This document shows, piece after piece, positions 35,041 through 59,353 of a DNA stretch of 64,000 nucleotides. The notes below the pieces were generated by a model. The model did no database searches. It saw nothing but the letters and a program-made list of their open reading frames with translations, and was not told the DNA's origin. The position numbers and the translations under genes were made by a program. Each line of letters begins with the position of its first letter. The first letter of the stretch is position 1. This stretch comes from Haliotis asinina (lineage: Eukaryota; Mollusca; Gastropoda; Lepetellida; Haliotidae): contig NC_090291.1 of the NCBI RefSeq assembly GCF_037392515.1, positions 34,352,501-34,416,500 on the forward strand, in the 5' to 3' direction.

Positions 35041-35589
35041 ATGTCGTTCATTGGGCGAGGCGAATGTAGGAACTGCGGCTGTGGAGAGTACGTGAAACCG
35101 CTCGACGGGCAGAAATGTTACCACTGCAACCACGACGTAGACGTCCACCTCGTCAAATACAAACCCCAAACAACTACATCGACACCAACCAGAAAAACCC
35201 ATTCATTATCTGTTCAGAACACGATGGATGGTGCCACGATTGACGTTAGCCAAATGCACTCGGGGGAGACGTTTAAACAAGGAGCCCCTGACATATGTTT
35301 TGAAGAAACGAGACAAGTTCGTGAACCCTATGTCCGGACGCAGGGACATTTTGTCAAGCCCCAAGATAAAGTTTCAATCATCTCAAAACAAATATCATCA
35401 GTCACAAGAAAGGACGAAGATGCTGGACACAGTGAAGGTAATACGCCCCCCATAGCAGCTCAAAGATCAATAGGTGCGGTTCCAGAAAGAGAGGAGTCCA
35501 GTCCAGTCTCTAAGTCCAGAAAGTCCTTGCCGAGGACACCGATGAAGGCATCCGATGTATTCGTTGCTACAGCACCTTACAATGGACCG
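35041..35589 (+). CDS. Gene A, coding exon 1: Cys/His zinc module and linker (GIY-YIG-like family)
   Basis: First of two coding exons of a 337-residue protein; I do not recognise a named orthologue. ATG 35041 (MSFIGRGECRNCGCGEY) is chosen because an acceptor-like cttttctcttgtag lies 15 bp upstream and the longer open frame before it is a microsatellite. Residues about 7-40 carry C..C.C...C..C......H (ECRNCGCGEY, KCYHCNHDVDVHL), a likely one- or two-zinc module. The rest (41-183) is low-complexity, Thr/Ser/Lys-rich and probably disordered. Donor gtatgt at 35590 in phase 0 joins to 36276. It heads a set of four related genes (A, B on +; C, D on -). The zinc module is shared with B-D only in pattern; a role in nucleic-acid or protein binding is inference. 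Confidence 0.72.
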
Positions 35590-35613
35590 GTATGTACTGC
35601 GTCTTTGATAAAA

Positions 35614-35773
35614 GGCCGGTGGGATAGCCTAGTGGTTAAGGCATTCGCTCGTCATGCCGAAGAACCGGGTTCGATTCCCTACATGGGTACAGTGTGTGAA
35701 GCCCATGTCTGGTGCCACCGCCGTGATACTGCTGGAATATTGCTAAAAGCGGCGTAAAACTAAACTCACTCAT
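35614..35773 (+). mobile_element. SINE type T, full length, in intron of gene A
   Basis: Best-preserved type T copy: ggccggtgggatagcctagt, gaagaaccgggttcgattcc, catgggtacagtgtgtgaag, tgctggaatattgctaaaag and aaactaaactcactca. A tRNA-like head with boxes A and B is clear. It lies 25 bp after the exon donor and keeps the upstream frame open, which could be mistaken for coding. Confidence 0.92.
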
Positions 35774-36275
35774 GTGAAAGCTCAATAAATTGCTGGAAAT
35801 TTGGGGAATTTCGTTATTCTAAGCCCAGGCTGTCATTAGATTGTTTAGTCACGTTACTAATTAGAATTTGTTTTGGAGGTACCTTTTTTTAAGAACCTCA
35901 TAAGGAGACTAATGAATATGTCTTTAATTACAAATTAACACCAAATAAGACATCGGTCTGGGTGCAGTTCCACTATCCAATCTTAACTAAGATCAGTCTG
36001 AGCAAGTTACGCCATTCTTTCAATTGTCTTAGCTAAAAGATACGCCCATTCCACAAACCGATCCTAGGCCGATCGTAGTCGGTACCGATCTTATCATCCG
36101 ATCAGCGCAAATGCCGTGACTCTTTCGTGCGAGAGATAGAAAAGTGCGAGACACGAGTCACGAGTGTCCCTTTGCATAGTCCAGCAGACGAAGGGCAAAG
36201 ATCGGTTACTGGAACGGGACCCCTGGCCACCTGATCACGCATCATTCACTGACACATTGTTCGCCTTGTTTGTAG
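35774..36275 (+). other. Intron of gene A, remainder
   Basis: Ends in cgccttgtttgtag acceptor at 36275. Contains a dyad-rich stretch with gatcctaggccgatcgtagt and related gatc motifs (36060-36190). Confidence 0.6.
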
Positions 36276-36740
36276 AAACCATCCTGCTGGCGTCTCAGAA
36301 TGAGCCATCTTGCCTACGGAACTGAACCACCGGAACGTCTTTGTGGCTCATACAAAATTGCAGAAAATGGACGGACAATCTACGTGGGCAATGCTGAAAG
36401 TGCATCAATCAGAAGAGCATTGCGGAGGCACTTCAGAGGAATGGAAAAGCAAAACATTGGGGCTTATCTTACCACCTTAGACGAAGAGTACAAAGATAAA
36501 TTTATAACAGTATTCTGGCTTGGTAGTGAAATCAAACATGACTGCAAGTGCAGCTATCTTAAGTGCTTTGAAAGAATGGAAGGGAAAAAGCCCCAGTATA
36601 ACATGCAGGGCCATTCCTACACCTCACGACCAAAGCGAGAGGGTTCACGGGTTACACCTGACCCATATAATCGGGAAATTATTACACCTTTAGTTGTCGA
36701 AGAGTTAGGGATTCTTCAAGAGGACTTAAAGGTTGAATAG
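36276..36740 (+). CDS. Gene A, coding exon 2: GIY-YIG-like nuclease domain with conserved Glu and Asn
   Basis: 154 residues, phase 0. GIY-YIG domains are small metal-dependent endonuclease folds (UvrC, SLX1, homing enzymes). Seen: LCGSYKIAENGRTIYVG (the GIY...YIG pair, residues 207-221), then SIRRALRRHFRG with an Arg followed by a His as in the family's R...H helix. Later KCFERMEGKKPQYNMQ has the Glu (282) and Asn (292) that complete a classical active site. A Cys pair DCKCSYLKC precedes it. The C-terminal 40 residues (VEELGILQEDLKVE) match nothing I know. This is the one family member in the window with a complete-looking catalytic set. Confidence 0.75.
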   Translation, partial: KPSCWRLRMSHLAYGTEPPERLCGSYKIAENGRTIYVGNAESASIRRALRRHFRGMEKQNIGAYLTTLDEEYKDKFITVFWLGSEIKHDCKCSYLKCFERMEGKKPQYNMQGHSYTSRPKREGSRVTPDPYNREIITPLVVEELGILQEDLKVE

Positions 36741-36787
36741 CCGACTCATATTTTGTGGGGAGGAAAAGATTTCTTTGATTCTTAACA

Positions 36788-36903
36788 CCGCACTCACCAG
36801 TAATCCAGTTATATGGCGGCGGTCAGTAATCTGGACCACACAATCCAATGATCAACAGCTCGAGCATCGCTCTACGCAATCGGGATACGATGACATGTGC
36901 CTG
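36788..36903 (-). mobile_element. SINE type L fragment
   Basis: ccagttatatggcggcggtc, cacacaatccaatgatcaac and gatacgatgacatgtgc. Lies just after gene A. Confidence 0.8.
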
Positions 36904-37049
36904 CTAAATCATATTAATCGATTTGGTTGAATAAATATGTCTTTAAAAGCAAGATTGTGTTCGTTATATTGGGGTAATATATTTGCCATGACATCAGAAA
37001 AGGTATCATCACGCTTACTGTCACTTAAAGTCAGAGTGAATAAGTGAGT

Positions 37050-37093
37050 GTGCGCACGCACGCACGCACGCACACACGCACGCACACATACAC
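37050..37093. repeat. (CACG)n microsatellite
   Basis: cgcacgcacgcacgcacgca followed by cacacgcacgcacaca. Confidence 0.9.
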
Positions 37094-37246
37094 GAGTTTT
37101 TGAGCTTGGTTTTAGCAATTGTCCAGCAATATCACGGCGGGGGACGCCAGCAATGGACTTTACACATTTTACCTACGTGGGGAAACGAACCCGGATCTTC
37201 GGCGAAACGAGCGAACGCGTTAACCGCTAGGCTACCCCGCCGGCCC
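37093..37246 (-). mobile_element. SINE type T, near full length
   Basis: gagtttttgagcttggtttt, ggacgccagcaatggacttt, acgaacccggatcttcgg (reverse box B), cgttaaccgctaggctaccc (reverse box A). Confidence 0.9.
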
Positions 37247-37354
37247 TACACACTTACAAAATGTAAGGTATGTGATTGTTATACAAGACGATAATAGTGA
37301 GTTCGTCATGGTAGTTAAATGGATCAGTTAAACGCTGTCTTCTATCTCACTCCG

Positions 37355-37542
37355 GCAAGATGGCGCAGCTGGTCACAGTCCGTTATCAACACGTATTATC
37401 AGTCCGTGATAACACGTATTAGCCTTTGTTATTATTGTCGTCCTTAGCTCAACAACAGTCTTTTTCGCCCTGTATTTTTAGTTTTGTTTCACCTTGCGAG
37501 CAAATTGTCGACCTAATTTCGTTTCGTTTTTCATTTCCTAGA
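37355..37542 (+). promoter_or_regulatory. Possible promoter / 5' leader of gene B (tentative)
   Basis: ccggcaagatggcgcagctg resembles a YY1-type start-site element, and tcgtttttcatttcctag just before the ATG looks like a splice acceptor, suggesting a short non-coding first exon between them. No donor is convincing. Confidence 0.3.
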
Positions 37543-37543
37543 C

Positions 37544-37903
37544 ATGGCAGTGTGCATAGACACAAACAAAGACAAGCGCGGAGTTGTTCGGGGTAGGTGT
37601 AAGGACTGTCCCGAGGACTGCCTAGAGTATTCCCAACCTGTCCACCGACACAACTGTACTTATTGCGGGTGTCCGGCGGGACAACATGAGAGGGTAGAAC
37701 CTCGACCGGAACGCATCATCAAGACAGAGCCTGGGGAGGAGGAGGCAGGATCTCCGGGACAGAGTAATGGCGGACCAACACCGGGTCCATCCAGAAGACC
37801 GGGTGGCTTGACAACTGACCGAGGCCGGCCTGGTCCTTCTAGGCGATACGAGTCCCCAAATAACTCAACCACACACCGAGGTCAATCGCGACCAGTAAGC
37901 CAG
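37544..37903 (+). CDS. Gene B, coding exon 1: Cys/His zinc module, linker with sumoylation-like motif
   Basis: 120 codons, ATG 37544, donor gtacaa in phase 0 after RPVSQ. Residues 16-50 form RGRCKDCPEDC...HRHNCTYCGCPAGQH: Cys19, 22, 26, 38, 41, 43 and His34, 36, 48, a probable zinc module nearly identical in genes C and D. IIKTEPGEEE (Lys60) matches the consensus for SUMO attachment with a downstream acidic patch. The rest is Gly/Pro/Ser/Arg-rich (GPTPGPSRRPGG) and likely disordered. The frame runs 22 codons past the donor, but C and D diverge right there while keeping cag-gtac, which supports the splice site. Product unknown; paired with 39131-39529. Confidence 0.75.
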
Positions 37904-38224
37904 GTACAATTTCAACTTAGGTACTTTTTAGCTTTTAGAAAGTATATGGAAGTTATCCAGACCCAAACCTAACCTGGTCCCTCCACGCGAATAGATCGCT
38001 TCTAGTGTCAAGAACACTTCGGGATATATAGTAATGCAGGTATTAAATCAGTCTTGACTACCATCAACAGAAGGATGAGTTTTATGACAACTACTTTATT
38101 ACCATAGATGAAACGTCCCGTCGTAATTGCTAATTTAACAGAGTTATGAAATTATGAAACAAGGGGTGACACTTGTCCTTCGTTATTATAGAAATTGTTC
38201 AAAGTAAGCTTGTTATTTGCTTGG

Positions 38225-38880
38225 AATGTGTCTGCCCGTAATCACTTTGTTGCCGGAGCACAACTCGAAACCCGTTCCATATTTTTTTCCACAAAAGATA
38301 GTAAACTATCAAAAAGAACCAAAAGTGGTGCCTTGAGCTCTTAACAGATTTTTGCAATTTATATCTTTCTGGAATTCCATGGAAACTTTCTGTACTCAGT
38401 CTCTAAACAGAGGTGTGGACTTCGTTTCCGGATTAAAACTGTTCTATATATTTTAACCACAATTGGTAGATTCATCAAACAGAAACTGATGTGGTGCCTT
38501 TGGCTATCTACGGGTTTTTTTGTCATGATTTTATTTTTCTCGGTTTCCACGGAAACGATCTGGACTGCTGAAAAGGGAGGGTTCGGTTTCGTTTCCGGAG
38601 CACAAATCGAAAAGCATTCAATATCAATTTGCAATTTGCAATATATACAAGACAGATTCCAAAGTTCTGGACTTCTTTCCCGGAGTACAACTCGAATACC
38701 GTGCAATAAGTTTTCAACAAAAATGGTAGAAATATCAAACAGAACCCACTGTGGTACCTAGTTTGCTTTTACAGGTTTTTGGCATGTATATATATTTGTT
38801 ATGATTTCCATGGAAAAAATCTCAAAAGGGAGGCGTGGGACAGATCCCAAAGTGGTGCCTCTTGCTGTTTGCGGAATTTT
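38225..38880. repeat. Diverged repeats in intron of gene B
   Basis: Recurring blocks cggagcacaactcgaa, atcaaacagaac, gtggtgcct and ccatggaaa at irregular spacing. Open frames on both strands here are short and overlap these blocks. Confidence 0.6.
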
Positions 38881-39130
38881 GTCTTTTGTTTCTTCTTGAT
38901 TTCCGAGCAAACAAGGCACCACTTGATAATCTACCGGGTCTCCCTGCTTAAAGTAAGTGCTAGATGATTTGTTTTTTAATATATGTTAGGACTTGGGTTA
39001 TTGTCATCTTCTGGAGACCGTTGTTTGAGAATGGGGATGTCACATTTCAAGTCTTGAAAGACACGTGCGTACATAGTTCATCCGGACAGTTAGTCTCTTA
39101 GACGCCTTAAATTTCACATATTCATTTCAG

Positions 39131-39529
39131 AAACGCTGCAAACAGTTATTTGAGAGTGAAGGTATCGCCTATTCTCAGCTTAAAAGACACCTCAGCGCAA
39201 CAGAACATGGTGTGTTCACAATTCTGTGGAAGGAGGAGATAATTTATGTTGGTAATCCAAAGAAGACACCAATGTTATCGAACATTCGTAGCATATTTAC
39301 TGGTGGAAACACTCAAGACATCGGCAAATATCTGAAAAGTTTACCAAAAGATTTGGTACGGCAGCACGCCCGAGTCGCGTGGCTCAAACACATTGATGAC
39401 GACCCTCACCGTCGAACCTGCAGGGAAGGCTACAAAATCCTGTCGTACCAACAGTGTCTATCAAAATTGCAACGGAGGAAACCAAGGGATGCGCTAAAAC
39501 ATTTAATGCAATCAACTGTTGGAAGATAA
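39131..39529 (+). CDS. Gene B, coding exon 2: GIY-YIG-like domain, active site altered
   Basis: 132 residues plus TAA; acceptor ttcatttcag, phase 0, full protein 252 residues. KRCKQLFESEGIAYSQLKRHL leads into HGVFTILWKEEIIYVGNP (GVF 147-149, IYVG 158-161) and LSNIRSIFTGG with the helix Arg (173). The C-terminal half HIDDDPHRRTCREGYKILSY then QQCLSKLQRRKPRDALKHL lines up with gene A's SYLKCFERMEGKKPQYN, but the catalytic Glu is Ser and the Asn is not present. So the fold looks kept and classical nuclease chemistry looks lost or changed. C and D share these changes. Confidence 0.75.
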   Translation, partial: KRCKQLFESEGIAYSQLKRHLSATEHGVFTILWKEEIIYVGNPKKTPMLSNIRSIFTGGNTQDIGKYLKSLPKDLVRQHARVAWLKHIDDDPHRRTCREGYKILSYQQCLSKLQRRKPRDALKHLMQSTVGR

Positions 39530-39959
39530 ATATGTTAACACACACAAAAATGAACTAAAAAATCAGGTTCAGTAGTCTTCACCCCCTGTTAAGGAGCTGA
39601 ACCTTTATAATTGTTGTTAAGAATTCCCAGATTTTGTATGTACAGTTTACAAACTGCTCAATCCCATAGTTTACAAATTGCTTGTATCTCAACGTCTTTG
39701 CTATTCCGTGCATAACATTACAACCAGGCTCACGATCCATAAACCATTCTTAACGTTACGACCTGTCTTAACTCTATAGTTTTTTAAATATTTTTTTATG
39801 ATTGAAATGTTCCATCTGTTTATTTTTTTGGCATATATATTTCTCGACAAAGAAGATTTCTTTTAGGGTTTTTATAAATGAAGTTATGCTAAGATGTCTA
39901 TTCCTAATACTACATATGTCTTTTGGCTGCAATGATGATGTGGTTTAGTAATGTATTTT
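39530..39959. other. 3' flank of gene B
   Basis: AT-rich; probable 3' UTR then intergenic. No clear poly(A) signal chosen. Confidence 0.4.
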
Positions 39960-42440
39960 GGTGTAGAGTACCAAACCAAACCATATGTTTTGTAAAAGTG
40001 AAATTGATGAGGGAATGAATTGTTGAGCCAAATTTGTAATTTTCTCTAAAAGGTTTGTGTCACTTGGCATTCCCAGCATACATTGAAAACACTCTCAGTT
40101 AGATCCTTGCAGAAACAGCATATGCTACTATCAACTTTCTTCAAGATCTGGTGTAAATTTGATACCTAGTACATCAAATTCACCAACTAACCATTCAACT
40201 TTTAGATCATTATATATCATATCATTAGATTTAGCTTTTGATCCAATCCATACCGCTTTTGATTTATCCAAATTAATTTTCAAACCTGACATTTTGTAAA
40301 ATGTATTAACTATGTCTATTGCAGAGTACAAACTCTCTTCAGTCCCATTCAGAAATAATTCATTATCATCGGCATATTGATTCAGTTTATATTCATTATC
40401 TTTAATAACTATACCTTAGATGTTTTCATTGTGTCTTATCATGCAACCAAGAATTTCAGCTACAAAGAGGAAAAGATATGGAGATAAAGGGTCTCCTTGT
40501 CTACAGCCCCTTTCATCTGCAAACCCCCCAGATAGGTTACCATGTTAGATGACACAGGATGTCGTTTCATACGTTAATGTATTTATCCATCCTACCAGTT
40601 TGGGGCCAAATTCGAATGTATGGATGACTAGATTCATAAAATCTTTTGAAATAGAATCAAACGCTTTTTCAAAATCAATAAGGATTAGCAAACATAATAT
40701 TGTATAATAATCTTGTATTTTCACTAATTGTCCTCCCTGGTATAAAACCAGTTTGGTTAGAGTGAATGAGTTCGTCTAGAGTAGATTATAATCTGTGTGC
40801 TATACAGGAGCTGATAATTTTGTAAATAGCATTAAGTAAAGTGATTGGTCTCCAGTTCTTCAGTAATGTTCTATCTTAATGGGGTTTTGGAATACAGGTA
40901 ATAACACCTCTTAATTGGCAGACATTTCATACTTGGCTTATACATCTTTAATGAATCTATAGATCCATGTTTTTAATTCTTTCCAAAAACATTTAAAGAA
41001 ATCAATAGGAAAACCGTTAATCCCTGGGCTTTTATTATTCTTCATTCTGTACACAGTATTACTAATTTCATCTAATCTGATAACTCTTTCAAGGTAGTCC
41101 CTCTGCGTTTGGTTCTAAATTGGAGTAGTAATATCGTTTAAACAGTTTTCATCCTCATAATGTTTGTGAGAGGCATATATATTTTTGTAAAATAGTTTTA
41201 GTTCATTCAGTATTGACTTGCTGTCAGTAATTTTACTATTATCATTAGTTACTAACTTGTTAATTGATTTTTGGGTGAACGTTCTATTTTCCAGGTGACA
41301 TAAATATTTTGAAGGTTTTTCTCCTTCTTCATACCAAAGAATTCGGTTTCGGATTTGTATTCCTTTCATTTCCTGATTTATAATTTCTTCCATTTCTTTC
41401 TTATATTTCGACAGTTCACCCAAAAGTTCTTCATCTATGTTTTGAAAAGTTTTTCTTATGGTATCTTCAAACTGTTTTATTTTAAATTCTAACTGTCCTA
41501 TAGTTTTTACTTTTGCTTTTTTCAAGCAGGATGAAAAAGATATAGTCTTTCCTCGAATTTTCATTAATAACGTTTCCAGAAATAAAGAGTTAGAAATAGT
41601 AAGTATAACATTGTCAGTGTTATTATTCTGTTGCATATTCCTGAACTGTGTCAGTTAAAATAGATCTGACAAAGTTTCCATACACAGGATTTAACAGCAA
41701 TGAAGTGTTAAACTTCCAATATCCGTGTCCTCGTTCCTGGCCTGAAGTGTTTGAAAAGGTTAATGTAATTGTTGAGTGATCACTTTTATAGCCTGGCAAA
41801 ATGTCTGAATTTAGACTTATATCAAATATATCCTCTGATACAATAAAGAAATCAAGCCTGGCTTGTTGTCTTGTATTTTCTATATTTATCATTCATATTG
41901 CTCCAAACATCAATAAGATTTGATAAATTCTAAAACAGTATTTCTTGATTTCGGGTTGTTTAGATGTTTATAATTCACAAGATCAATTGTTGGATCAATA
42001 ACCAAAGTCCAGTCTCAAACTGTTATCAGAGAATCATTCTCAAAATTAAGAATACATGTATTTTTAAACAGATTAGTGTAAGAAATACTGTCATCGATAT
42101 TAGGACCATAGAGATTAGTTAGCGTTAGTCTTTTATCCTCTATTGTTAAATCAGCTATTCTATAATTTCCATTTTTATCTATTAAAGTCTTATGTATTTT
42201 AAGATCAATATCGTTGTTAAAGAGAATGGCCACTCCTATGGAATTAGATTTAAAAGGTGCAATTATGGATTGTAAACCCCATTCGTTTCTCATGATATTG
42301 CAAGTAGATTCATCAATATGAATATCTTGCAGACATATGATTGAGTGTTTTTTTCCGGTTTATGTTCATTAATTCTTTTCTTTTAGATTTGTCTGCAAGT
42401 CCTCTACAATTAGCTGAGATAACTGACGTAATAAAAATGC
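39960..42440 (-). pseudogene. Degenerate L1/Tx1-type LINE ORF2 relic
   Basis: Minus-strand remains of an endonuclease/reverse-transcriptase LINE, distinct from the intact one. Endonuclease start TSVISANCRGLADKSKRKEL (about 42430-42365), then MRNEWGLQSIIAPFKSNSIG, VAILFNNDIDL and TNLYGPNIDD; RLDFFIVSEDI and YKSDHSTITLTF follow near 41820. A linker ORF spans 41636-41115. RT motifs: RQGDPLSPYLF near 40500, NQYADDNELFLNG near 40360, SGLKINLDKSKAVWIGS near 40260. A zinc end region (CFCKDLTESVFNVCWEC) near 40090-40040 directly follows, so the part between is deleted. Many stops and frameshifts; no terminal duplication seen. Old. Confidence 0.85.
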
Positions 42441-42611
42441 ATTAAAGCTGGGACCTGCATCTAATAGTATTGAAAGAGGAATATCTATACAAAAACATTC
42501 TTACTGGAGAAAAAGCGTAGGGTTAAGTATACATGTATAACATAATACAAGTGTCCCGCCAATATGACTGACACGCTTCACTCTCAGACCACCTCTCCCT
42601 CTGTCATTAAG

Positions 42612-42648
42612 AGAGTGACACCCCCCCCCCCACCCCCCCACCCCCCCG
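42612..42648. repeat. Poly-C tract
   Basis: Nearly uninterrupted run of C (accccccccccccacccccc type), about 37 bp. Confidence 0.93.
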
Positions 42649-42912
42649 AGCCGATACACGTGCACGGAGTCGACGTGATTACATACGTCGAACAGATGCT
42701 TGTGGGGATGTTCTGCCACTCTCAGTGCGAAGACAGGGTCAACACAGGGACGTTGTTTGGCTGACATTGACACGAAAAGGGTTTGAAACCAGATGGGCAA
42801 GTGGTTTTCTTCGGTAACCTCACATTACCATTCGAGTGATAAATGAAAGTGCTTCATAAAACTTTATTAGAATTTTTTTGGCTATTTTTTGCGTTTTCAG
42901 TGTGTGTCGGTA
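42649..42912. other. No gene recognised
   Basis: Flank of the poly-C tract; short open frames without motifs. Confidence 0.4.
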
Positions 42913-43075
42913 TGGATGACAACTTCTTGATTTATTGCATAGAGCGACTTACACCAATGGCATCATCTCACATTTAAATCGAACGTCGCGCTATGCAGTA
43001 AATCTAGATGTTGTCATCCATAAAGTTGGATGTTTCATTTTTGACTCAACAACTTCTAGAATGCCGATCAAACAA
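42913..43075. mobile_element. Fold-back MITE
   Basis: tatggatgacaacttcttga ... ttattgcatagagcga is mirrored by cgctatgcagtaaatctaga then tgttgtcatccata (42913-43022); the flank to 43075 also matches the fragment at 6598-6700. Confidence 0.75.
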
Positions 43076-43227
43076 TGAAAAGAGTTCCTGCACTTATGAC
43101 AACAGTATACGATCAAAGCCACCCATTTACTTTTGACCCTACAGCAGAGGCAACGCAGTTCCTGGACCATGTGTTCTGGTATCTACGTTAGAGGAAAGCT
43201 TAGTTACTGCAACATCGCTGTCTAACA

Positions 43228-43610
43228 GACCACGGGCAAACTGTAGCGCAAATGGGGTTGTGCAGTTTAGAGAAAATGACCAGTCTTCTTACATGCGAGC
43301 TGGCAGTGGTAATGGAGGCGAAGAACGTACTGAATACCACGAGTGGCGCCTAAAATGTTGAATAAAACATATTTCACATGAGTACTTCTTAAACATGGAG
43401 TAGGAAATCTGAGAGCACAACCAAGTGAGGAAATGGGAGTGTACGTTTGATGTTGGTTATGTTTTATTTTGACTTAAAAATAATTTCGATCCCAAGCGAT
43501 AGAAGAACGTTGCCAACCTTTGCTCACTTCACTCGCATATAAGAAGACTTGTCAAATTCTCTATGCTGCGCAACCCCATTTGCGCAACAGTTTGCCTGCG
43601 AATAGACTCA
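43228..43610. mobile_element. MITE-like element with about 85-bp inverted arms
   Basis: Left arm gggcaaactgtagcgcaaat, ggggttgtgcagtttagaga, gtcttcttacatgcgag. The reverse complement of 43515-43610 reads ggcaaactgttgcgcaaatg, gggttgcgcagcatagagaa, gtcttcttatatgcgag. No open frame between. Confidence 0.75.
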
Positions 43611-43704
43611 CACGCCTTGTCATTCATGATAATGACATACTGTAGTCAATATCGACCTTTATATTATTACTCGCTAATTATCAGTCGCTTATATTCATCA
43701 ATAT

Positions 43705-44790: not shown

Positions 44791-44984
44791 AGACCTTTAG
44801 AACAAAGACAGTATGGCGATGCTGGGATCTTCTAGCACATTGTTATTTTTAATATTCAGACTCATTTTTGTCGTTTGCGCTGTAGAGATGTGATCAGTTA
44901 TGTAAATGCCATTTTATACGCAATACGTCAACAAACAAACAAACAAACACACAAACAAACAAACAAACAAATAAATAAATATAT

Positions 44985-47439: not shown

Positions 47440-47522
47440 CATGTCGCTACATCCTGGTTCCCGGGCCTCTCATTAATATTCAGAATATTAATGAGAGGCC
47501 CGGGAAACAGGATGATGTCGCT
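47440..47522. repeat. Palindrome, 22-bp perfect arms extending to about 40 bp
   Basis: cccgggcctctcattaatat t-c at 47460-47481 is exactly inverted at 47483-47504; beyond that the arms continue imperfectly (catcctggtt / aaacaggatg; gtcgct on both sides). Confidence 0.9.
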
Positions 47523-48266: not shown

Positions 48267-48910
48267 AGTAGGGGAACTGTACTTTCAACGTACGATTGTC
48301 GACATTGGGAGATACATGGGATGGAATCAATGTTGATACAATAATAATGGATGTTTTGTGAATGCATCGCCACATGGATTTCATTCAAAGAAAAACTGTT
48401 CGTTCAGTTATCCCGTTTGTTTGGTCACTAGAGTATGGCATGAAAATTTCAGGTTTACAATTTTCAGTCAGTAGTGTGTGACTTGCTCCTGAAGAGTCAG
48501 ACATTCATCCAGACGACGCGGCATACTGCGTATGAGTTTCCCAATAGTCGTTTGAGGGAGTCTGTTCCATTCATCATGTAGTGCAAGGCCGCGCTCATCC
48601 AGCGTAGTCGGTGGCCTTTGACGTTGACGCACACGTCTCCCTATCATGCCCCAGACGTGTTCGATGGGGGAAAGGTCAGGGCTTAACGCTGGCCATGGCA
48701 TACGATAGATGTTGTGCTGGAGGTGATCATTGACGGTACGCGCAAGGTGTGCACGTGCACTATCATCCTGAAAGATGAACTGACGACCGACCTGCCTCGC
48801 AAAGGGGACAACACAGGGTGTCAGTATGTTGTCTCGGTCTTCCTTGCACAACATGAAGAGGGGTTCGGTCTGTCATAGTGATACCACACCATACCATTAC
48901 TGACCCACCT

Positions 48911-48922
48911 CCAAATCGATCG
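48911..48922. repeat. SINE target-site duplication, left
   Basis: ccaaatcgatcg, identical to 49132-49143. Confidence 0.9.
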
Positions 48923-49131
48923 CGACTATGCTTGTCGTAAGAGACGACTAACGGGATCAGGTGGTCAGGCTCGCTGACTTGGTTGACACATGTCATCGGT
49001 TCCCATTTGCGCAGATCGATTCTCATGTTGTTGATCACTGGACCCTCTTGTCCAGACTCAATAATTTACAGACCGCCGCCATAAAACTGGAATATTGCTG
49101 AGTGCGGCTTAAAACTAACTCACTCACCAAT
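48923..49131 (+). mobile_element. SINE type L, 5'-truncated, inside the transposase
   Basis: Begins cgactatgcttgtcgtaaga, ends aaaactaactcactcaccaa t. Flanked by a perfect 12-bp duplication, so retrotransposed by target-primed reverse transcription rather than moved by a transposase. Confidence 0.93.
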
Positions 49132-49143
49132 CCAAATCGATCG
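49132..49143. repeat. SINE target-site duplication, right
   Basis: ccaaatcgatcg. Confidence 0.9.
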
Positions 49144-49968
49144 TGTGGTCTCATGCTGATGTCAGCATGGCGTTCATTTCTTCTTCGCCAGTCCCGACCA
49201 CGCCCGTCAAGGACGTCCAAGGTAAATCCTGACTCGTCTGAAAATATGACACGTGACCAACGACAATTTCTCCAGTGTCTACGTGCCCTGCACCACTGTC
49301 GTCTTTGAACCATGTGACGATCAGTCAAGAGGGGTACAACATGGTGCCGTCGTGCATGTAAATGAGCTGCATGGAGGCAATTCCTAATCGTCTGACCAGA
49401 AACTCGAACACCAGTAGCCGGCTTCAGTTTGGCTGCAATTTGATTTGCCGTTTGAGCTCGATTCCTTAAAACCTGGTTAAGAATGAAACGGTGCTGTACT
49501 CTTGTTGTTGACCTTGGACGACCTGAACGGGGTCGATCATCAACATTTTGGGTTTGCTGGTCTGTTAATGACTGACTTGGAAACATTATATTGAAGGCGT
49601 TGGCCACTGCTCGCTGGGTAGTGCCAGTTTGCAACATTCGAATTGGACGTAAACGTTCATTATGTTGCATAAGCGGCATTGCAAATTCATACCATCTAAA
49701 CGACTAGAAGCATACACTAACAACTGCGTGATGCACAGATGCAAGAAGAAAATTATAGGAAACAATGGTATGCAGTGATTTATCGACCTGCCTGAAAAAC
49801 GTCAAGATTCATAATGACACCCCATGGACGTGTAGGAGGCTTCCCATGCATTGTGTTTGTGTGTGGTGATAAAGTGAAATGATGCTGCATACACAAGATG
49901 ATTGTCATTGTAACGTTCCACGATGGGGTTTCTTTCTAACACACTTCAAACTTCAGGTTCCCCTACTT

Positions 49969-50960: not shown

Positions 50961-51026
50961 CCTAGCTAAGATACATAGCGTTCACTACACTACATCATGT
51001 AGTGAACGCTATGTATCTTAGCTAGG
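50961..51026. repeat. Perfect palindrome, 29-bp arms
   Basis: cctagctaagatacatagcg ttcactaca at 50961-50989, exact inverse at 50998-51026, spacer 8 bp. Flanked on both sides by ggtccagcct. An imperfect relative lies at 61228-61283. Confidence 0.93.
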
Positions 51027-51169
51027 TCCAGCCTGGAGGGGTTTATGACACCGAATGTTTACTGAATACACGAAACAAAGGAGATTATGTCGCTTGAATA
51101 CATATGACGTGTTAAAGGAACTTATTGAAATGGTTTACTGTATGACAGATATTACATTGTGTGTATGCC

Positions 51170-51441
51170 GCTGATGTTAGGATCGGTGTGAGTGAACATT
51201 ACACTGGATGTCTAGAACCAATTTGGGGGTTTGAAACCAGAAGATGAATTCTAACCCGGATGTGAATTGAGGAAGACAAATGACAGAATAGAGTTGCCTC
51301 CTCTTCAATGTAGGGGAAGTTCACGGTTTTCAAATGGATTCTGTTGGGTTTCACCAATTCAGCTTTGATATTTAAGCGCAGTTGTTCCAGCGCTCGTTGG
51401 GATATCATATCATAACCTACACTGTTTAAAACATGTCTCAC
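51170..51441 (-). other. Conserved non-coding block after the putative first exon of gene C
   Basis: Diverged match to 59985-60297 and 62180-62495 (shared gcagagttgcctcc, attcagctt, catgt). Short open frames here and in the two relatives do not share codons well enough to be coding; I read it as intron start. Confidence 0.5.
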
Positions 51442-51530
51442 CTGTGAAGGAATCTATAGCTGTGATGATCCAGACAGCATGCCTCCCGCTCCCGGTTGTT
51501 AACTGGCCTCTGACCTACATACAAACGTGA
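51442..51530 (-). promoter_or_regulatory. Putative non-coding first exon / promoter of gene C
   Basis: Minus strand: a CRE-like tgacgtcacgtttgtatgta, ggtcagaggcc, cgggagcgggaggc, gattccttcacag and then the donor gtgagacatg. The same block with a valid donor occurs at 60303 and 62501. The start site is not defined by the sequence. Confidence 0.5.
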
Positions 51531-51594
51531 CGTCAGCGTATTTGTGACTTAGTTGTGCATAGCTGCACTAGAATATTCCAGCTACTATAGTAGA

Positions 51595-51860
51595 GGAACT
51601 GCACTTTCAATGTACGGTTGTCGAAATTAGGAGATATGTGGGATTGAATCAATGTTGATACAATAATAATGGATGTTTTGAGATTGCATCGCCACACGGA
51701 TTTCATTCAAAGCAAAACTGTTCCTTCAGTTATCTCCCTTGTTAGGTGACTGGAGTATGAAATGAAAATTTCAGGTTTACAATTTTCAGTCAGTAGTGTG
51801 TGATTTGACCCCGAAAACCCTGACCATACACAGATGCAAGAAAAGTATCGGACATTTTTC
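51595..51860 (+). mobile_element. Solo terminal fragment of the 48267-49968 Tc1-like element
   Basis: agaggaactgcactttcaat through aatttcaggtttacaatttt and gtcagtagtgtgtgattt match 48268-48482, then jump to cacagatgcaagaa, equal to 49735. An internal-deletion derivative. Confidence 0.82.
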
Positions 51861-51934
51861 GCTGAAGAAGGGTGAGGTATTATGTTGTTGTCATTTTATG
51901 CCCAAGAAATGAAGAAAGAATTGTCTGCGAGAAT

Positions 51935-52265
51935 AATATCTTTACTGAACGTAAGGTTAAACAATGTATCTACAAAACCTTTTTGCGCTCAGAAAAATCT
52001 GTAAAAATATCTAACTGAATGTGAGAAAAATGATCACATACAGAGCTAAACTAAAACATAAAAATAAATATAATAAAATATATAGTATTTAAGTATTACT
52101 TGTATTCTGAAAAGAAATTGTCTACGGATAGACGTCAAATACAGTCGATGCGATTCATTATCTGTAGATCTACATGGTATTTTGCAATCGAATAGCGACA
52201 GTCAAATACAAAACAAAAAGCGTATAAACAGCCCCGGTGGAAGTTCCTGAGACAAATCATACATG
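51935..52265 (+). repeat. Dispersed repeat Q, second copy
   Basis: taaacaatgtatctacaaaa, cagagctaaactaaaacata, agaaattgtctacggataga and aaacagccccggtggaagtt; see 44985-45300. Confidence 0.75.
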
Positions 52266-52662
52266 TTCAGTTGATGTCGGCCAAAAGACCATGGTGACAA
52301 GATAAACCAATACTTCATGATGTAAGCGACCTTCGTGATGTTATATAACCCGTATCTATCACATAAACCGCTGACCACAACTTCGACTTAGACTTAGTTC
52401 CAGGGTGCCGATCCACAAAGCGTTCGTACCGTTACGACCTGTCGTAACTCGATACGTCATCATAGTAGTAGCGCTACGAAGACTTTGTGGGTAGGGGGCC
52501 TGAATACACGCACGCACGCACGCACTACTGATAGTAACAATTAATCCCACATCTATTGAAAAGGAGCCGCAGTGAGCTATTCGGGCAGAACATGGCTTGC
52601 TTCTTCTAGGGCTTTAGCATTGGAGGGAGGACAGTAGGGAAAATACTGTCTTTCAGGGACCT
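52266..52662. other. No gene recognised
   Basis: Contains gttacgacctgtcgtaactc, a dyad related to the repeats at 12640-13320, and a short (ACGC)n run at 52505. Confidence 0.5.
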
Positions 52663-52928
52663 GAGTGAGTGAGTTAAGCTTTACGCCGCACTCAGCAATA
52701 TTCCAGCTTTATGACGGCGGTCTGTAAGTAATCGAGTCTGGACCAGACAATCCAGTGATCAACAACATGAGCATCGATCTGCGCAATTGGGAACCGATGA
52801 CATGTGTCAACCAAGTCAGCGAGTCTGACCACCTGATCCCGTTAGTCGTCTCTTACGATAAGCATAGTCGCCTTTTATGGCAAGCATGGGTTGCTGAAGG
52901 TCTGTTCTACCCCGGGACCTTCACGGGT
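52663..52928 (-). mobile_element. SINE type L, long copy
   Basis: gtgagtgagttaagctttac gccg, atattccagctttatgacgg, gaccagacaatccagtgatc, gccttttatggcaagcatgg and ccgggaccttcacgggtc. Cleanest body sequence of the reversed copies. Confidence 0.92.
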
Positions 52929-53639
52929 CTCAGGAACCTGAGAGGGGTCAGCGAAAGAAATGCTGTACCTTCTAGACCACTAATGTCTCTATTGCAGCAA
53001 TGTATCAAAACAACCCCACATTCACTACAGCTGTGTCCACGTGTTTCCTTGGTGTAGGATATCGACACGTCAACAGTAACCGCTCCCGCTTAGTCTAATG
53101 CGAGTGTCGTCTTCGAGGTTTGTGAATTCCAGTACATGTTATACTGACCTAACCCCGAGTAACCCCATATTGATGAAAGTTTTATATTAAAAGAGGAGCA
53201 GCTGCTTACGTTGTTATGTGTTATTTGAGAGTTCCTTAATATACAAAAGTTTGACAATGAAAGACGTTTGATTGCACCGTTTCGATCTAAGGTGGAATGT
53301 CTGCACGAGGTGACGTGAGCGTTCAAACGCATGTGAGACGTTTAGCGTAATTTGTAGAAATATGTAGAACTTTTTGTGCTGAATGCAATGGTACGAACCA
53401 AAACATTGTATGTTCACAAATGAAAAAGGTATACTGACACAATCGGTCGCCATTTTGATTGTCTCACTCTTTCAGTCCAGGTATATAGCACTTATCGAGG
53501 ATGCTCGTAGAGATAAATTCGTTATCATGTGTTCGAAAGTTTGATATGGAGATTTATCATGTGTCCGTGTTAAATATCAAACTCGAACGAGGAACTCGCG
53601 AACTCATGGTAACTTATATTGTATTGTTCGAAAAGAAAA
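52929..53639. other. No gene recognised
   Basis: No motifs or elements recognised. Confidence 0.4.
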
Positions 53640-53899
53640 CACCAAGATGTTTGATATGTTGATGTACACCCTACAAATGTTCATTATTTAAGATCAAGTT
53701 TTCTTCCCATTTATCCAGTTGGGCTAAATCATAGCTGAGAGTAGCTTCAGTCAGTTTTACACATTTTTCTGCAACACCGATTGACAGGTTAATGTTTTTT
53801 TTTCAGGTAAAGCATTGACATATAACAGGAACAAAAAAGGACCTAAGACAGATCCTTGAGGAATCCTTGCAGCAACCATCAGTTCTTTTGATCATGTTC
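53640..53899 (-). pseudogene. LINE reverse-transcriptase fragment
   Basis: Minus strand reads ARIPQGSVLGPFLFLLYVNA (RT motif GIPQGSVLGP.LF..YIN) near 53870-53810, then, after a break, KLTEATLSYDLAQLDKWEEN. The YADD segment between is missing. A third LINE lineage, unlike both the intact LINE and the L1/Tx1 relic. Confidence 0.75.
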
Positions 53900-54624
53900 C
53901 ATTAAAAAGACACACTGTGCTCAGAACTCAGTATATATGTTGGAAGATGACAAAAACGTGGAGACAATGGTCAGCATGCGTGCGTCTTTCAAGCCACTCT
54001 CCAAACCGACTGTTATTGGAGATTTCTTTCACCACAAGTGAGTGTCTAAATTTTGATTGGTATTTGTAATACTATGAACAATCTATCCAGACATTGTATA
54101 CATTGCTTGATTGTTATGTTAATATTAAAAAAAACTGTAATAAAGTCATTTGATACATGTATAAGTTCGTATGTTCTCTTTCACCGTAAGTCAAAGGGAA
54201 GTAACTCTACTGAAGCGGTGTTTGTTTCAGTAGTCCGTACATTTCACTATCCGAACGTTTTTGATGAAAACCAGAAGTGTCCGGATTAACGCGGCCTGAC
54301 TGTATGCTAAATTTCTGAGTTGATATACAGTAGAATGACTATCATTGAAAATGACTTCATTTGACTTAACTATCTGTGTTCATGCATGGAAATGGATGTT
54401 GGTTGGGATCGATTTATCTCATATAATGAAAATAGGAATAACGTTTCACATTGTAGGGTATACACATTTTCTTATGTTATACAACACAGAAAAGGGTTCG
54501 CCAATTGTAAATAAATACATGCTTGAAGCAAAAAATATTGCATTAAAAAATATTAAACAGGTGGCTAAAAATGTGAATATGTTAATAAATAGGTACAGAC
54601 TATAGAACTGGAACAAAACAATTA
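53900..54624. other. No gene recognised
   Basis: Open frame 54345-54605 (86 codons) has no motif I know and sits against the transposon's left end. Confidence 0.4.
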
Positions 54625-55082
54625 CAGTCTGTTTAGTCAGAAACGGACCGATGAATTGCAAATTTTATCTTTGTATAAATTGCCACATAAATATACATAG
54701 TACACATGTTTATTATTTATTGATACCCAGCAGCTTTCTGATATCTGAAACTTTTTCGGACTCCACCAAAAAGGTTGCATTAAGAACTATCATAATTGAA
54801 AACGCAAATGTTGTTTTCTGTCGCGACGGGGTGAAACCGCAGAAACAGCCATTATCTCGGGATACACATGCCTGACGAAAAATGAAGTTGAATGCTGTTG
54901 TAAAACAGTTGATGATTAAAGCGTACGATTTTTCCGAGCTGAAGCCGAAAGGGGCAAATAATTTTATGCCATAATAGAAATTCCGTAAGGGCTTTACACT
55001 TTTCAGCAAAGGTACTGACAAATGTTCTGGAAGGACAAACATTGTGAGGGGTATGCGTAGTGAGGGGTCGTGTCAAGGTCAC

Positions 55083-56135
55083 AGAAAATCAAAGCATTTG
55101 GACAACTTTCGAAAGAACCGTGTAAGTCTATCAACAAGTTCTATTCTGAAAACAAATACATGTCGCTGAAAATTTTAAAAAAAACAAACAAAACATTTGA
55201 TTCAAGAACACAGCCTCAGAATATCAAAGTACGCACTCTGGCGACTCTTACACTCTTTCGGGTATCGTTATAAGAAAATTTCGGGGGAGAATAGGTCAGT
55301 ACTCTGTGAACGCACTGATATCCTTCGCTTGAGAAATAATTTTCTCGGGATAATAAAGAAGAAGCGCGAGGAAGGGTTCGAGCCAGTGTACTTGGATGAG
55401 ACCTGGGTCAATGCCTCGCACACTGTCAGCAGTCAGTGGGTACCTGATGAGGGTGATAAGGGGTCACGCAGAACGCTGCATCTAGGGAAAGGAGAGAGAC
55501 TAATCATTCTCCATGCTGGTTGCTCCTGCAAAGGCTTTCTCTCAGGCTGCGACTTGGTATTCAGGGCAAAGTCCACAGATGACAGAGACTACCATTCCGA
55601 GATGAATGGTGCGCTTTTCCACGACTGGGTTAAAAACAAGCTGGTACCAGCCCTACCAGAGAATTCTTTTATCGTAATGGACAACGCCCCATACCACAGC
55701 GTGCAGGACCCCGACAGCAAAGCCCCGACATAGAACAGTCGAAAAGGTGATATGATATCAAGGCTCGACAAATTTCAGATTGCACGGCCATCAAAGGCAA
55801 CGAAGCCTTAGATATATGAGGTCATAAAAACCCACAAAGGTGAACCTTTCTCCAAAGCTGACAGTTACGTAAAAAGTAAGGGTCGCGATATTCTGCGACT
55901 TCCGCCCTATCACTGTGACTTTAACCTCAATGGAATGACATGGGTATTGTCAAAGGAGATGTTGCCAGATCAAACACAACTTTTAGATTACGTGGCGTAC
56001 AGGTTTTGGTTAAGGAATTCAACAAATCCACGACTGAAACTTGGCAAAACTGTGTTAACAAGGTAGCAAAAGTTATTGTACAAGGTCTCGGGATGGCTTA
56101 CAACAGGCAACTGTGGAACCACTTGTCACCCCTTT
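55083..56135 (+). pseudogene. DD82E-type transposase, degenerate
   Basis: Best frame 55197-55733: LLHSFGYRYKKISGENRSVL, PVYLDETWVNASHTVSSQW (first Asp), GERLIILHAGCSCKGFL, DYHSEMNGALFHDWVKNKL, SFIVMDNAPYHSVQD (second Asp). After a TAG at 55731 and at least one more stop it continues as KGRDILRLPPYHCDFNLNGM, where the catalytic Glu region is lost. N-terminal pieces are out of frame upstream. Same transposase family as 20593-21914 but clearly a different subfamily. Confidence 0.85.
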
Positions 56136-56695
56136 AAGTCGTGACTATGACACTACGATAGACGAGGAACCGACAGGTCTCCCTGGATAGATTTTGAGAT
56201 GTCCCCAGCCATGACTGGCTGTTCCGTTTCTGCGGTTTCACCCCACTGCGTCAGATAACAACTTCTGCGTTTTCAATGATGATAGTTCCTAATGCAACCT
56301 TTTTGGTCGGGTACGGAAATTTTTCAAATATCAGAAAACTGTTGGGTATTAGTAAATGATAAACATGTGTACTATTTATATTTATGTTTGTGTACCAGAA
56401 CATTTGTCAGCACCACCAGCGTATGGTGCCCGCTTACGGACTTAGGGATTTATCAGTGGCATAAAATGATTTGCCCCTTTCGACGTCAGAATGGAAAAAT
56501 CGTACACTTTAATCATCAGCTGTTTCAGGTCAGCATTCAACCTCCTTTTTCAGAGATAGTGGCTGTTCCGTTTCTGCGGCTTCACCCCGCCGCGCCAGAA
56601 TACACCTTTTGCGTTTTCAGTGATGATAGTTTCTAATGCAACTTTTTTGGTGGAGTACGGAAAAATTTCAAACATCAGAAGGCTGTTGGGGGTAA

Positions 56696-56892
56696 GAGTT
56701 CCGCCCGTACCCCAACCTCAAACAAAAGCCAACATTACAAAATGACATGCACATCTCACCTTAAATATACATTCAATAAACTTGAACGGGTATTAAAAAA
56801 ACCCCAAAAATGAACTTATTTCAGTGTTGGAATATTAAACAGGGGAAGGTGGAAATATGCTATGTGAAAAGAGGTGGGTACGGGCGGAACTC
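56696..56892. mobile_element. 197-bp MITE with 17-bp inverted ends, nested in the DD82E arm
   Basis: gagttccgcccgtaccc at 56696-56712, exact inverse gggtacgggcggaactc at 56876-56892. AT-rich interior without coding capacity. Confidence 0.88.
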
Positions 56893-56991
56893 CCGAGTTG
56901 AGTATCAGTAAATGATAAACATGTGTACTACTAATATAATGATAAAACTGGCAATTCATCGTTCCATTCTGACTCAAACGGACTGTATGTT

Positions 56992-57393
56992 CTAACGATT
57001 GATGGTTTCCTCTCTCATCAAACCTTTCAGAACATCCCTTGGCTTCACCCCCTGCAGATTTGACAGACACTGTCGATATGACATCCCTTTCTTGCCCTCT
57101 TTACACGTCTTGGGGTGCGGGTCATCGTCTATGTGTTTTAGCCAGGCAATCTTAATGTGAGCACTTTTCAAAACGTTGGGTACGTTTTTCAAACATTTGC
57201 TGATGTCTTGATTGCTTCCACCAGTAAATATGCTACGAAGACAGGTTAATATTGGCGTCTTCTTTGGCTCTCCAACATAAATTATTTTCCCTTTCCACAG
57301 GATTGTGAACACGCCACATTCTGTTCTGCTGAGGTGTCTTTCAAGTTGAGAATATTGGACGCCGTTATTCTCAAATAACGTCTTACAACGTCT
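56992..57393 (-). CDS. Gene D, coding exon 2: GIY-YIG-like domain, active site altered
   Basis: 133 residues plus TAG; acceptor gttggtttcag before 57393. RRCKTLFENNGVQYSQLERH, CGVFTILWKGKIIYVGEP, LTCLRSIFTGGSNQDISKCL, HIDDDPHPKTCKEGKKGMSY, RQCLSNLQGVKPRDVLKGLM, then REETINR and stop. Keeps GVF/IYVG and the helix Arg; has Ser at the Glu site like B and C. Full protein 255 residues. The second DD82E transposon ends 6 bp beyond the stop codon, so the natural 3' UTR is displaced. Confidence 0.75.
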   Translation of the reverse strand, partial: RRCKTLFENNGVQYSQLERHLSRTECGVFTILWKGKIIYVGEPKKTPILTCLRSIFTGGSNQDISKCLKNVPNVLKSAHIKIAWLKHIDDDPHPKTCKEGKKGMSYRQCLSNLQGVKPRDVLKGLMREETINR

Positions 57394-57465
57394 CTGAAAC
57401 CAACATGTGAAAGAAAATCAGACAGGTGAGCTCATGGAAATTTGAATTTGAAATTCATGTTACGG

Positions 57466-57988
57466 CAGTGTAAGTTAACTTAGACTCAGTATTATTCGTT
57501 ACTCTGGTATATACTGAATCTACCAAACCTTAGTAGAAGGTTGCTCAAAGGTTAACTGAAGCGACCTTCTACAGTGACTGTTCAATCAAAAGCGAGACAG
57601 CCGAACGGAATTAACCAACCAGACAAAGGGTACTGTTTAGGGTTCGGCGGGATCTACCAATTGGCGACGCATGATGACATAGTTACTATTAGATTATATT
57701 TCCGTAAGATGACATACTGGACTACAGATCGAATGTCCTTTTCAGCAACTGTTTATTATCGTTCAGCGTCCTCCACGAGTATCCCCCGGAAGTGATCGTG
57801 CGGTAATATCACTACGGAATCGTTCGAGCATAAACGTTTTCGAGGTGAAGGTTAAAACGGTACGTGCAAATGCTAACTTTCGCGATTTGGTAGGCTGTGA
57901 TTGGTCAGTTAAAAGTTTTTAAGGGTTTGTCAGACTCAGAATAGCTGTGAAACGGATATAATACTGAGCCTAAATCTACTTAGATTTC
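57466..57988 (+). mobile_element. Non-autonomous derivative of the first DD82E element, in intron of gene D
   Basis: Left end cagtgtaagttaacttagac; the right end gcctaaatctacttaga is its rough inverse. Interior matches 22914-23400: agaaggttgctcaaaggtta, atatttccgtaagatgacat, ttttcagcaactg, gtttcgaggtgaa-like and cgcgatttggtaggctgtga. About 520 bp, no coding capacity. Confidence 0.82.
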
Positions 57989-58799
57989 ATGTCACAGACT
58001 GATTTGTCTGTGGTGAAAAAACAGGTGAAAAAACAGTTGCAGGTGCACGCCATGTACTACGTGCCTGGTACACACCAGGCAATGGCAGTGTCTGTCAGAT
58101 AATGTAGTTTCTTTAATTACAGGCATGCATCTCTGTTTCCATGAACTGTTCATATTAAAACAATTTCTCATATATAGGCAAGTGTAACCCTGTATTCTAG
58201 TAAATATACTCGACAACAAAATTCCCTGCGATACAGACATTTTTGGATAAATTTGATCAGGTTTACCCAAAACGTACATAATACGAAAACAGAGCATACA
58301 AACGCAACTTTGAAATGATTTTTTTAAAACCAGGTCAAGCTGCTTTTGCACGTGCAATTTCGTGAAAAAAAACCGTCTGTGAGTTGCGGAGCTTTTTTCA
58401 ATGTGGATAAAGACACGTTCAATGACAGCTACCTGAATACAGCTACCTGGATAAACATTGAATTTCAAACCAGAAGTAAACTCTTTTGATGTCAAGACTT
58501 TCTGAAAAGGAGTGGTAGCGAGCACTTGGAAGCCGGAACCACAGGCGCTCTTGTCATTGCGAGGATATATCTAGATATATTGTCCCGTGAAGCGTTACAA
58601 ATGGCATGTTGTACACCAGCTGGCAAAAGACTAAACGCCAGCCACGTGGTTGTATTTTAAACCTCAACATTTAATTGCACAAACATATAAATACCCAGCA
58701 CCTAAGATACCAAATCAACGTCTTCCTGGTGCGGATCCAGGGCTTTGGAGAAGCGGGAGCATTATCATGTAAATTATAGCATCTAAAAACATTATACGT
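57989..58799. other. Rest of intron of gene D
   Basis: A 177-codon open minus-strand frame (57992-58525) has no recognisable domain, signal or splice support and is not called as a gene. Confidence 0.45.
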
Positions 58800-58870
58800 T
58801 TGCAAAAGTCTAGATTTATGTTTTAAAAAATTGTTGTCCAAACATAGATTCGAATCCCTGTGTCCTGGAT
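58800..58870. repeat. Short block repeated at 61565-61635
   Basis: gcaaaagtctagatttatg, then gtccaaacatagattcgaat; the relative at 61565 reads gcaaaagtctagatttttat and caaacagagattcgaacc. Outlier block of the larger duplication. Confidence 0.65.
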
Positions 58871-58987
58871 CAGTGGTGGTCAAGCAGCATAAACAATAAG
58901 ATAAGGTAAAACATAGATAATCAAGATGTCTAAATAACTTCCAAACAGTTACTGAAATCTAAAACATTAAGTAAAGTGAAATTGTAC

Positions 58988-59353
58988 CTGGCTTACTGTT
59001 CGCCACTGACCCCGGTGTGTGGTAGAGTCATTTGACGACTCATTTCGTCTAGAGGGACCAGGCCAGACTTGGACCGTGGTCCAGCCATCTGGTCTTCTGG
59101 ATGGACCCTGTGTTGGTCCGCCGTTAGTCCGTCCCGGACACCCTGCTTCCTCGTCCTCCCCAGGCTCTGTCTTGATGATGAGTTCCGGTCGAGGTTCCAC
59201 CCTCTCGTGTTGTCCCGCCGGACACCCGCAGTAGGTACAGTTATGTCGGAGGACAGGTTGGGAATACTCTGGGCAGTCCTCGGGGCAGTCTTTACACCTA
59301 CCCCGAACAACTCCGTACTTGTCTCTGTTTGTGTCTGTGAACACTGCTGCCAT
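58988..59353 (-). CDS. Gene D, coding exon 1: Cys/His zinc module and linker
   Basis: 122 codons from ATG 59353 (MAAVFTDTNRDKYGVVRGR), donor cag-gtacaa in phase 0. CKDCPEDCPEYSQPVLRHNC, YCGCPAGQHERVEPRPE, then LIIKTEPGEDEEAG (Lys61). The linker has drifted (TTVQVWPGPSRRNESSND) where C reads TTDRGRPGPSRR. An acceptor-like cctag-ag sits 2 bp before the ATG, as in C. Upstream, putative first exons lie at 60303 and 62501. Confidence 0.75.

Follow-up and report, generated by a model that had tools for sequence, protein, structure and literature searches.

A tandem gene family of Haliotis asinina that pairs a Cys/His module with a domain of probable GIY-YIG ancestry and an apparently degraded active site

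Seven clustered genes share a two-part architecture

We analysed a window of 64,000 nucleotides from the genome of Haliotis asinina (contig NC_090291.1, here C12:34352501-34416500; assembly 1.143 Gb), which holds four genes, A to D, that join an N-terminal Cys/His module through a linker to a GIY-YIG-like domain. A–D are two-coding-exon genes in models read from the sequence: their spliced frames are all uninterrupted (337, 252, 267 and 255 amino acids (aa), respectively), and their introns, of 686, 1227, 258 and 1594 bp, lie in phase 0 with GT...AG ends, as a preceding sequence-only reading of the window had described them (Table 1). B, C and D are close paralogs: they are similar across their two exons and the short margins of the intron, and the likeness drops within 60 bases 5' of the ATG (17/55 to 25/54 mismatches). 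An AG stands directly 5' of the ATG in A–D, preceded by a pyrimidine-rich stretch that is evident in A–C and less clear in D, and an untranslated 5' exon is therefore possible. In a tblastn search of the window, A exon 2 aligns with the corresponding exons of C and D at E-values of 1e-9 to 3e-8.

The four members counted by the sequence-only reading turn out to belong to a larger set. The cluster comprises seven genes, A–G, over about 50 kb (about C12:34387541-34437096), extending past the window so that E, F and G lie within 21 kb of its right end, and there are relatives beyond it: H at C12:44.03 Mb, and I and J on C16. The Cys/His module and the GIY-YIG-like domain are paired in six genes (A–D, F and G, the exon 1 donor of G being putative), a repetition that argues against two unrelated genes having been joined in the models. 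Gene E lacks a recognisable Cys/His module; as a candidate for its exon 1, a weak RCYACNRNYPAHS stretch (L022:1162) was rejected, since by eye its donor is in the wrong phase. The long tails of E and G gave no Pfam match at E<=0.1, and the surroundings of H, I and J, examined to roughly 6-10 kb on each side, showed no Cys/His module. When the D protein was searched against the 1.14 Gb genome, for which all counts are lower bounds, at least seven matches were obtained at E<=0.001, all (7/7) at C12 34.39-34.44 Mb; this confinement to the cluster is more in keeping with a host gene family than with a mobile element. A second GIY-YIG group lies at C16:4508811-4586271 (L026-L029), where no Cys/His module was found and some copies carry stops or frameshifts.

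Table 1. Exons and exon remnant of the family, with positions in the window unless another reference is given
Feature	Content	Position	Strand	Basis
Gene A, coding exon 1	Cys/His module (C9, C12, C14, Y17, C26, C29, H36) and linker	35041..35589	+	sequence, motif search
Gene A, coding exon 2	GIY-YIG-like domain, GSY...IYVG...PQYN	36276..36740	+	tblastn, blastp, weak PF20815 match, low-confidence model
Gene B, coding exon 1	Cys/His module, psi-K-x-E motif IIKTEPGE (by eye), linker	37544..37903	+	
Gene B, coding exon 2	GIY-YIG-like domain, GVF...IYVG	39131..39529	+	
Gene C, coding exon 1	Cys/His module, IIKTEPGE, linker	46924-46553	-	
Gene C, coding exon 2	GIY-YIG-like domain, GVF...IYVG	46294-45863	-	
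Gene D, coding exon 1	Cys/His module, IIKTEPGE, linker	59353-58988	-	
Gene D, coding exon 2	GIY-YIG-like domain, GVF...IYVG	57393-56992	-	
Remnant like gene A exon 2	eroded, 30 aa, 60% identical	48000-47914	-	tblastn E 5e-5
Gene E, exon 2 frame	over 1200 aa, GIY-YIG-like start, tandem TTKPEYTAVTGQHAEQPMHRPL repeat, second PNKACAEPRSKTKV repeat	L022:1933-5589 (C12:34418433-34422089)		

Exon 2 very likely descends from a GIY-YIG domain

Exon 2 carries the motifs G(S/V)(Y/F)...(I/V)Y(V/I)G in A–G and G(I/L)Y...IYVG in H–J, which are partly degenerate. The GIY-YIG ancestry of A–G rests on intermediates, because A–G pass no Pfam cut-off and their relatives H, I and J pass that of PF01541 (30.2, 23.0 and 25.2 bits; cut-off 22.6). 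Specifically, A matches H in its own genome at E 1.4e-6, in an alignment that extends past the H stop codon, and more weakly I and J on C16 (E 0.058 and 0.84). By blastp, for which the database size was set to a million letters in comparisons among the family, the E-values are 2.9e-9 for A-H, 6e-6 for A-I and 5e-5 for A-J, with homology over about 90-110 residues. A seven-member exon 2 profile (H, I, J, F, G, E and A) searched against all Protein Data Bank (PDB) sequences returned nine matches at E<=10, and all nine are GIY-YIG nucleases (six UvrC, two I-TevI and one Endonuclease II; best E 0.0098). The sequence-only reading had named the lack of any GIY-YIG profile or structure match as one of two results that would tell against it; such matches exist for the family by way of its intermediates, and A–D themselves stay below every Pfam cut-off.

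We compared profiles with three candidate source groups. A profile of A–G scores 28.6 over 33 columns against E. coli UvrC, where 40 column shuffles reach at most 14.3 and the reversed profile 15.0. The same profile scores 14.2 against an SLX1-like exon of this genome (L035, named by our own reading; 76 aa used), with a shuffle maximum of 16.3, and 17.3 against a five-copy profile of Penelope-like endonucleases from this genome, with a shuffle maximum of 19.8. The H–J profile alone, scored without shuffles of its own, gives 40.1, 24.7 and 17.4 against UvrC, the SLX1-like exon and the Penelope-like profile, respectively. Because the A–G profile beats its shuffles against UvrC and does not do so against the other two, the UvrC/homing-type group appears to be the nearest known group found for exon 2.

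PF20815 (GIY_YIG_2) matches A weakly, at E 0.16 and below cut-off. In NCBIfam at E<=1, nothing was found for either exon of A or D or for F exon 2; H matches 12 models, mostly UvrC-type (best 4.9e-5), all below cut-off. The PHROGs families that A, D and F match at E<=1 all lack a known function (E 0.055 or worse), as does the one that H matches at 5.7e-4. H also yields tblastn matches at E<=10 to 17 phage records (best E 0.3) and 14 plasmid records (best 0.9), several of them annotated as GIY-YIG or endonuclease, which we do not use as proof; a scan of viral contigs with the four exon 2 proteins gave 95 pattern matches and 0 confirmed.

Several results weigh against GIY-YIG ancestry. Besides the missing Pfam matches, the profile alignments cover mostly the GIY-YIG hairpin and the first helix, not the Glu/Asn region. 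Against PDB sequences, A exon 2 alone has six matches at E<=10, none of them GIY-YIG; whole D has 0; and a profile of the four window exons finds two UvrC chains (E 0.065 and 1.6) together with two spindle pole chains. AlphaFold models were made of A exon 2, with only four sequences as input, and of D. The A model has a mean predicted local distance difference test (pLDDT) score of 49.5, with 24/154 residues at 70-90, and its low-confidence core runs strand-strand-helix-helix-helix-strand-helix; the D model (mean pLDDT 41.9) is uninformative. The models thus speak neither for nor against a GIY-YIG fold. Taken together, these sequence profiles make it very likely that exon 2 of A–G is of GIY-YIG descent.

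Exon 1 encodes a Cys/His module

The core of exon 1 reads C-x2-Y-x(8-10)-C-x2-C-x6-H, with more cysteines upstream. A strict search for this motif in the window and 13 further genome stretches gave seven matches at six distinct sites (one seen twice, in overlapping stretches), which are A, B, C, D, F and G; the motif occurs at family exons only, and 0 matches were found in each of 20 shuffles made in blocks of three bases. The union of Cys/His module and GIY-YIG-type domain that the sequence-only reading had proposed is supported by this motif and by the profile evidence above. Within a small database made from the searched stretches, G exon 1 matches its counterparts in B, C and D at E 1e-7 to 2e-5. 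In tblastn, the exons 1 of A and F show no significant likeness to the other exons 1 (best for F, E 0.013), and they are grouped with the family because the Cys/His spacing is common to them, not by tblastn similarity. A genome search with G exon 1 at E<=10 returned five matches, namely G itself, the B exon (E 0.09) and three others; its match on C2 has two stops and is without the Cys/His pattern. This search missed the known C and D exons and is therefore insensitive.

The module had been called a zinc module, and on this point a comparison with zinc-finger families gave no backing: no curated zinc-finger model exceeds its cut-off over exon 1 of A–D, F or G. The nearest are zf-UDP over the F module (13.9 bits; cut-off 27.1) and zf-Nse in B (13.2 bits; cut-off 27), the latter at residues 114-133, outside the module. 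Because the curated models give no match above cut-off, it is from the Cys/His pattern that we read the module as probably zinc-binding. By eye, psi-K-x-E motifs are present in B–D (IIKTEPGE) and in G (GIKREIASEDE), which we take to be candidate SUMO-type sites, and basic stretches occur in the E and G tails and in the F linker. Basic stretches and psi-K-x-E motifs together, presumably nuclear signs, suggest that the products are probably nuclear; that both the SUMO and the nuclear readings were made by eye counts against them.

Cluster genes show an apparently degraded active site

The features of the GIY-YIG superfamily given in the excerpt of PMC1564403 are GIY, YIG, a central Arg and a C-terminal Glu, on a fold in which three helices enclose three strands. 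We assigned active-site columns from two MAFFT runs that included A–G and H, I and J from among the distant copies, with E. coli UvrC as reference. H, I and J each carry Tyr, Tyr, Arg, Glu and Asn at the UvrC positions (all five in 3/3), whereas none of A–G has the full set. In the Arg column, A–G show the letters A, N, S, C, D, T and H, with Arg in 0/7 against 3/3 of H–J; we therefore describe A–G as descendants of the superfamily and not as typical nuclease members. Additionally, B, C, D and G have Phe for the first Tyr and another residue for the Asn, so that B–D are without first Tyr, Arg and Asn together. The Glu column, in a region with indels, reads K, G, K and G in A, E, F and G, and E in B, C, D, H, I and J. 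The active site thus appears degraded in the cluster genes A–G, a point that the sequence-only reading missed. Two by-eye readings were set aside: one in which A retains the Arg together with a displaced Glu was overturned by the UvrC alignment, and an alignment anchored on P-x-Y-N, which places Cys in the Glu column of A–G, was not relied on.

On these columns, a loss of cutting in most of A–G is likely. The opposing account is that A–G are still active nucleases, with shifted or substituted Arg and Glu, whose Cys/His module targets the domain to particular DNA. A, E and F do retain both motif tyrosines and the Asn, an Arg lies one place off its column in A (IRRAL) and two places off in G (IRRHL), and B–D carry Glu at the Glu position, in the region with indels; both the Arg and the Glu assignments are thus alignment-dependent. 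These observations speak against a complete loss, and residual activity is therefore possible. We nevertheless consider active nucleases unlikely, given that the full UvrC set is found in every aligned distant paralog and in no cluster member, and that B–D are without three of the five residues.

Purifying selection and probable exon 1 homogenisation

B–D are under purifying selection, the ratio of nonsynonymous to synonymous substitution rates (dN/dS) by NG86 being 0.22-0.37 per exon for the B/C/D pairs and 0.22 to 0.43 for the linker. Higher values come from YN00, which gives 0.38-0.59 per exon and up to 0.90 for one linker pair, and from the NG86 range for the module, which runs from 0.06 to 0.60, the latter value being that of B-C. 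If the term fast-evolving, which the sequence-only reading had offered as a possibility, is taken to mean positive selection, it finds no support in these values, although the family members are very divergent.

The two exons of B, C and D differ in divergence. Synonymous divergence (dS, NG86) is 0.22-0.28 in exon 1 versus 0.45-1.06 in exon 2, and mismatches are fewer in exon 1 (B-C, 37/360 versus 117/396, Fisher p 2e-11; B-D, p 2e-8; C-D, p 0.004), although the Fisher test on mismatches does not separate homogenisation from stronger constraint. Because the lower exon 1 dS points the same way as the raw mismatch difference, the data suggest that exon 1 of B, C and D has been homogenised, perhaps by gene conversion. 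In a tree of the ten exon 2 domains, the branch leading to B–D is long (1.24 changes per column), and under a midpoint root H–J are split from A–G with modest support (87/86).

A tandem array with divergent members and probable exon 1 homogenisation is what an immune or genome-defence effector family might look like, and the sequence-only reading had suggested such a role. The B/C/D pairs have dN/dS below 1, the array is modest in size, and no further domain was found in A–D, E or G. With nothing found in favour of the role itself, we regard a defence family as decidedly improbable.

Other sources of the exon 2 domain

PF01541 matches at least 17 places in the genome, H among these, and 15 of the 17 (L036-L050), several with stops, look by eye like Penelope-like endonucleases, a naming made without a family model. 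Since these are the commonest PF01541 matches, the exon 2 domain might have been captured from a Penelope-like retroelement. Between the two motifs, however, a CxxC counted by eye is present in 13/15 of these copies and in 0/10 of A–J, and the A–G profile, well above its shuffles against UvrC, falls below the shuffle maximum against the Penelope-like profile; such a capture is very unlikely. That exon 2 is not GIY-YIG at all and resembles it only in a short beta-hairpin, as the absent Pfam matches, the hairpin-centred alignments and the poor models might suggest, is extremely improbable in view of the homology to H, I and J and of PDB matches that all fall in one superfamily.

Proposed role of the family

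We propose, as the account that is on balance somewhat probable, that A–G form a host gene family of probably nuclear pseudonucleases that derive from a UvrC/homing-type nuclease and bind without cutting. In this tandem family, with products that are probably nuclear, an N-terminal, probably zinc-binding Cys/His module would be tethered through the linker to a domain descended from GIY-YIG proteins of the UvrC/homing-endonuclease type, with a cutting site that would have decayed in the cluster genes A–G. Most likely, the retained fold would bind DNA or a protein partner and not cut, and the Cys/His module, together with the SUMO-type psi-K-x-E motifs of B, C, D and G, may serve partner recruitment or regulation. 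DNA binding as the present role of A–G, taken by itself, is a tentative suggestion with less than even likelihood. A fuller scenario is quite unlikely, in which the nuclease line of H–J, its site kept, gave rise to the tandem, module-bearing and SUMO-regulated A–G, which lost cutting and now compete for or mark the DNA structures acted on by SLX1 or Penelope-like endonucleases.

Other features of the window

A non-LTR (long terminal repeat) retroelement occupies 24735-29956 (-) with two long adjoining frames of 466 aa and 1275 aa; the former has a CCHC match of 17.9 bits, below the cut-off of 20.8, and the latter has endonuclease, reverse transcriptase and RNase H matches. A transposase remnant at 48468-49703 (-), of which 49038-49703 matches HTH_Tnp_Tc3_2, has its frame broken (by eye) by a repeat at 48922-49127 that is also found at 52665-52871 and elsewhere in the window. 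Two copies of a direct repeat of 1.4-1.5 kb, 85% identical, lie at 59582-61012 and 61757-63225, and an inverted repeat with arms of about 25 bases (TTCCCGGGCCTCTCATTAATATTC...) was seen by eye at about 47458-47508 (-). The frame 11872-12447 (+) matches Metallophos_C above cut-off, resembling the end of a purple acid phosphatase, and further on there are weak membrane-protein matches below cut-off.

Comparison with known systems

The family has its strongest profile affinity to the N-terminal GIY-YIG domain of UvrC and to I-TevI-type homing endonucleases. H, I and J align with UvrC at both motifs and at the Arg, Glu and Asn, whereas A–G differ at the active site; furthermore, no UvrC-type extra domain was found in A–D, E or G, and A–D, F and G have the N-terminal Cys/His module. 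Penelope-like endonucleases are likewise GIY-YIG proteins and have many dispersed copies in this genome, in contrast to the A–G family, which is of low copy number and mostly local.

Among animal proteins, SLX1 and ANKLE1 are GIY-YIG nucleases, and the excerpt of PMC13179284 counts no annotated human GIY-YIG proteins besides SLX1A and ANKLE1. None of A–D has an ankyrin, LEM or RING match above cut-off, nor an ankyrin or LEM Pfam match at E<=10, and the A–G profile does not exceed its shuffles against the SLX1-like exon of this genome. The same excerpt reports an animal GIY-YIG-like domain without nuclease function in ANKLE2 (PMC13179284), which to that extent is a precedent for A–G. In ANKLE2, however, which is described there as an ankyrin/LEM protein, neither a GIY nor a YIG motif is clear, whereas A–G retain GxY/F and Y(V/I)G. 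Tn7 was considered as a precedent for a dead GIY-YIG target selector and, by the excerpt of PMC10293859, is not one.

No family with an N-terminal Cys/His module stands in the available part of Table 1 of PMC1564403, and no mollusc GIY-YIG family of the A–G architecture is described among the literature matches listed; this architecture may be present, unnamed, in other molluscs. Few animal GIY-YIG proteins have been described, and the pairing of the module with the domain, with intact and degraded sites in one genome, would allow the passage from a cutting domain to a binding or regulatory one to be tested. If the family is widespread in molluscs, it would give a name to genes now labelled uncharacterised.

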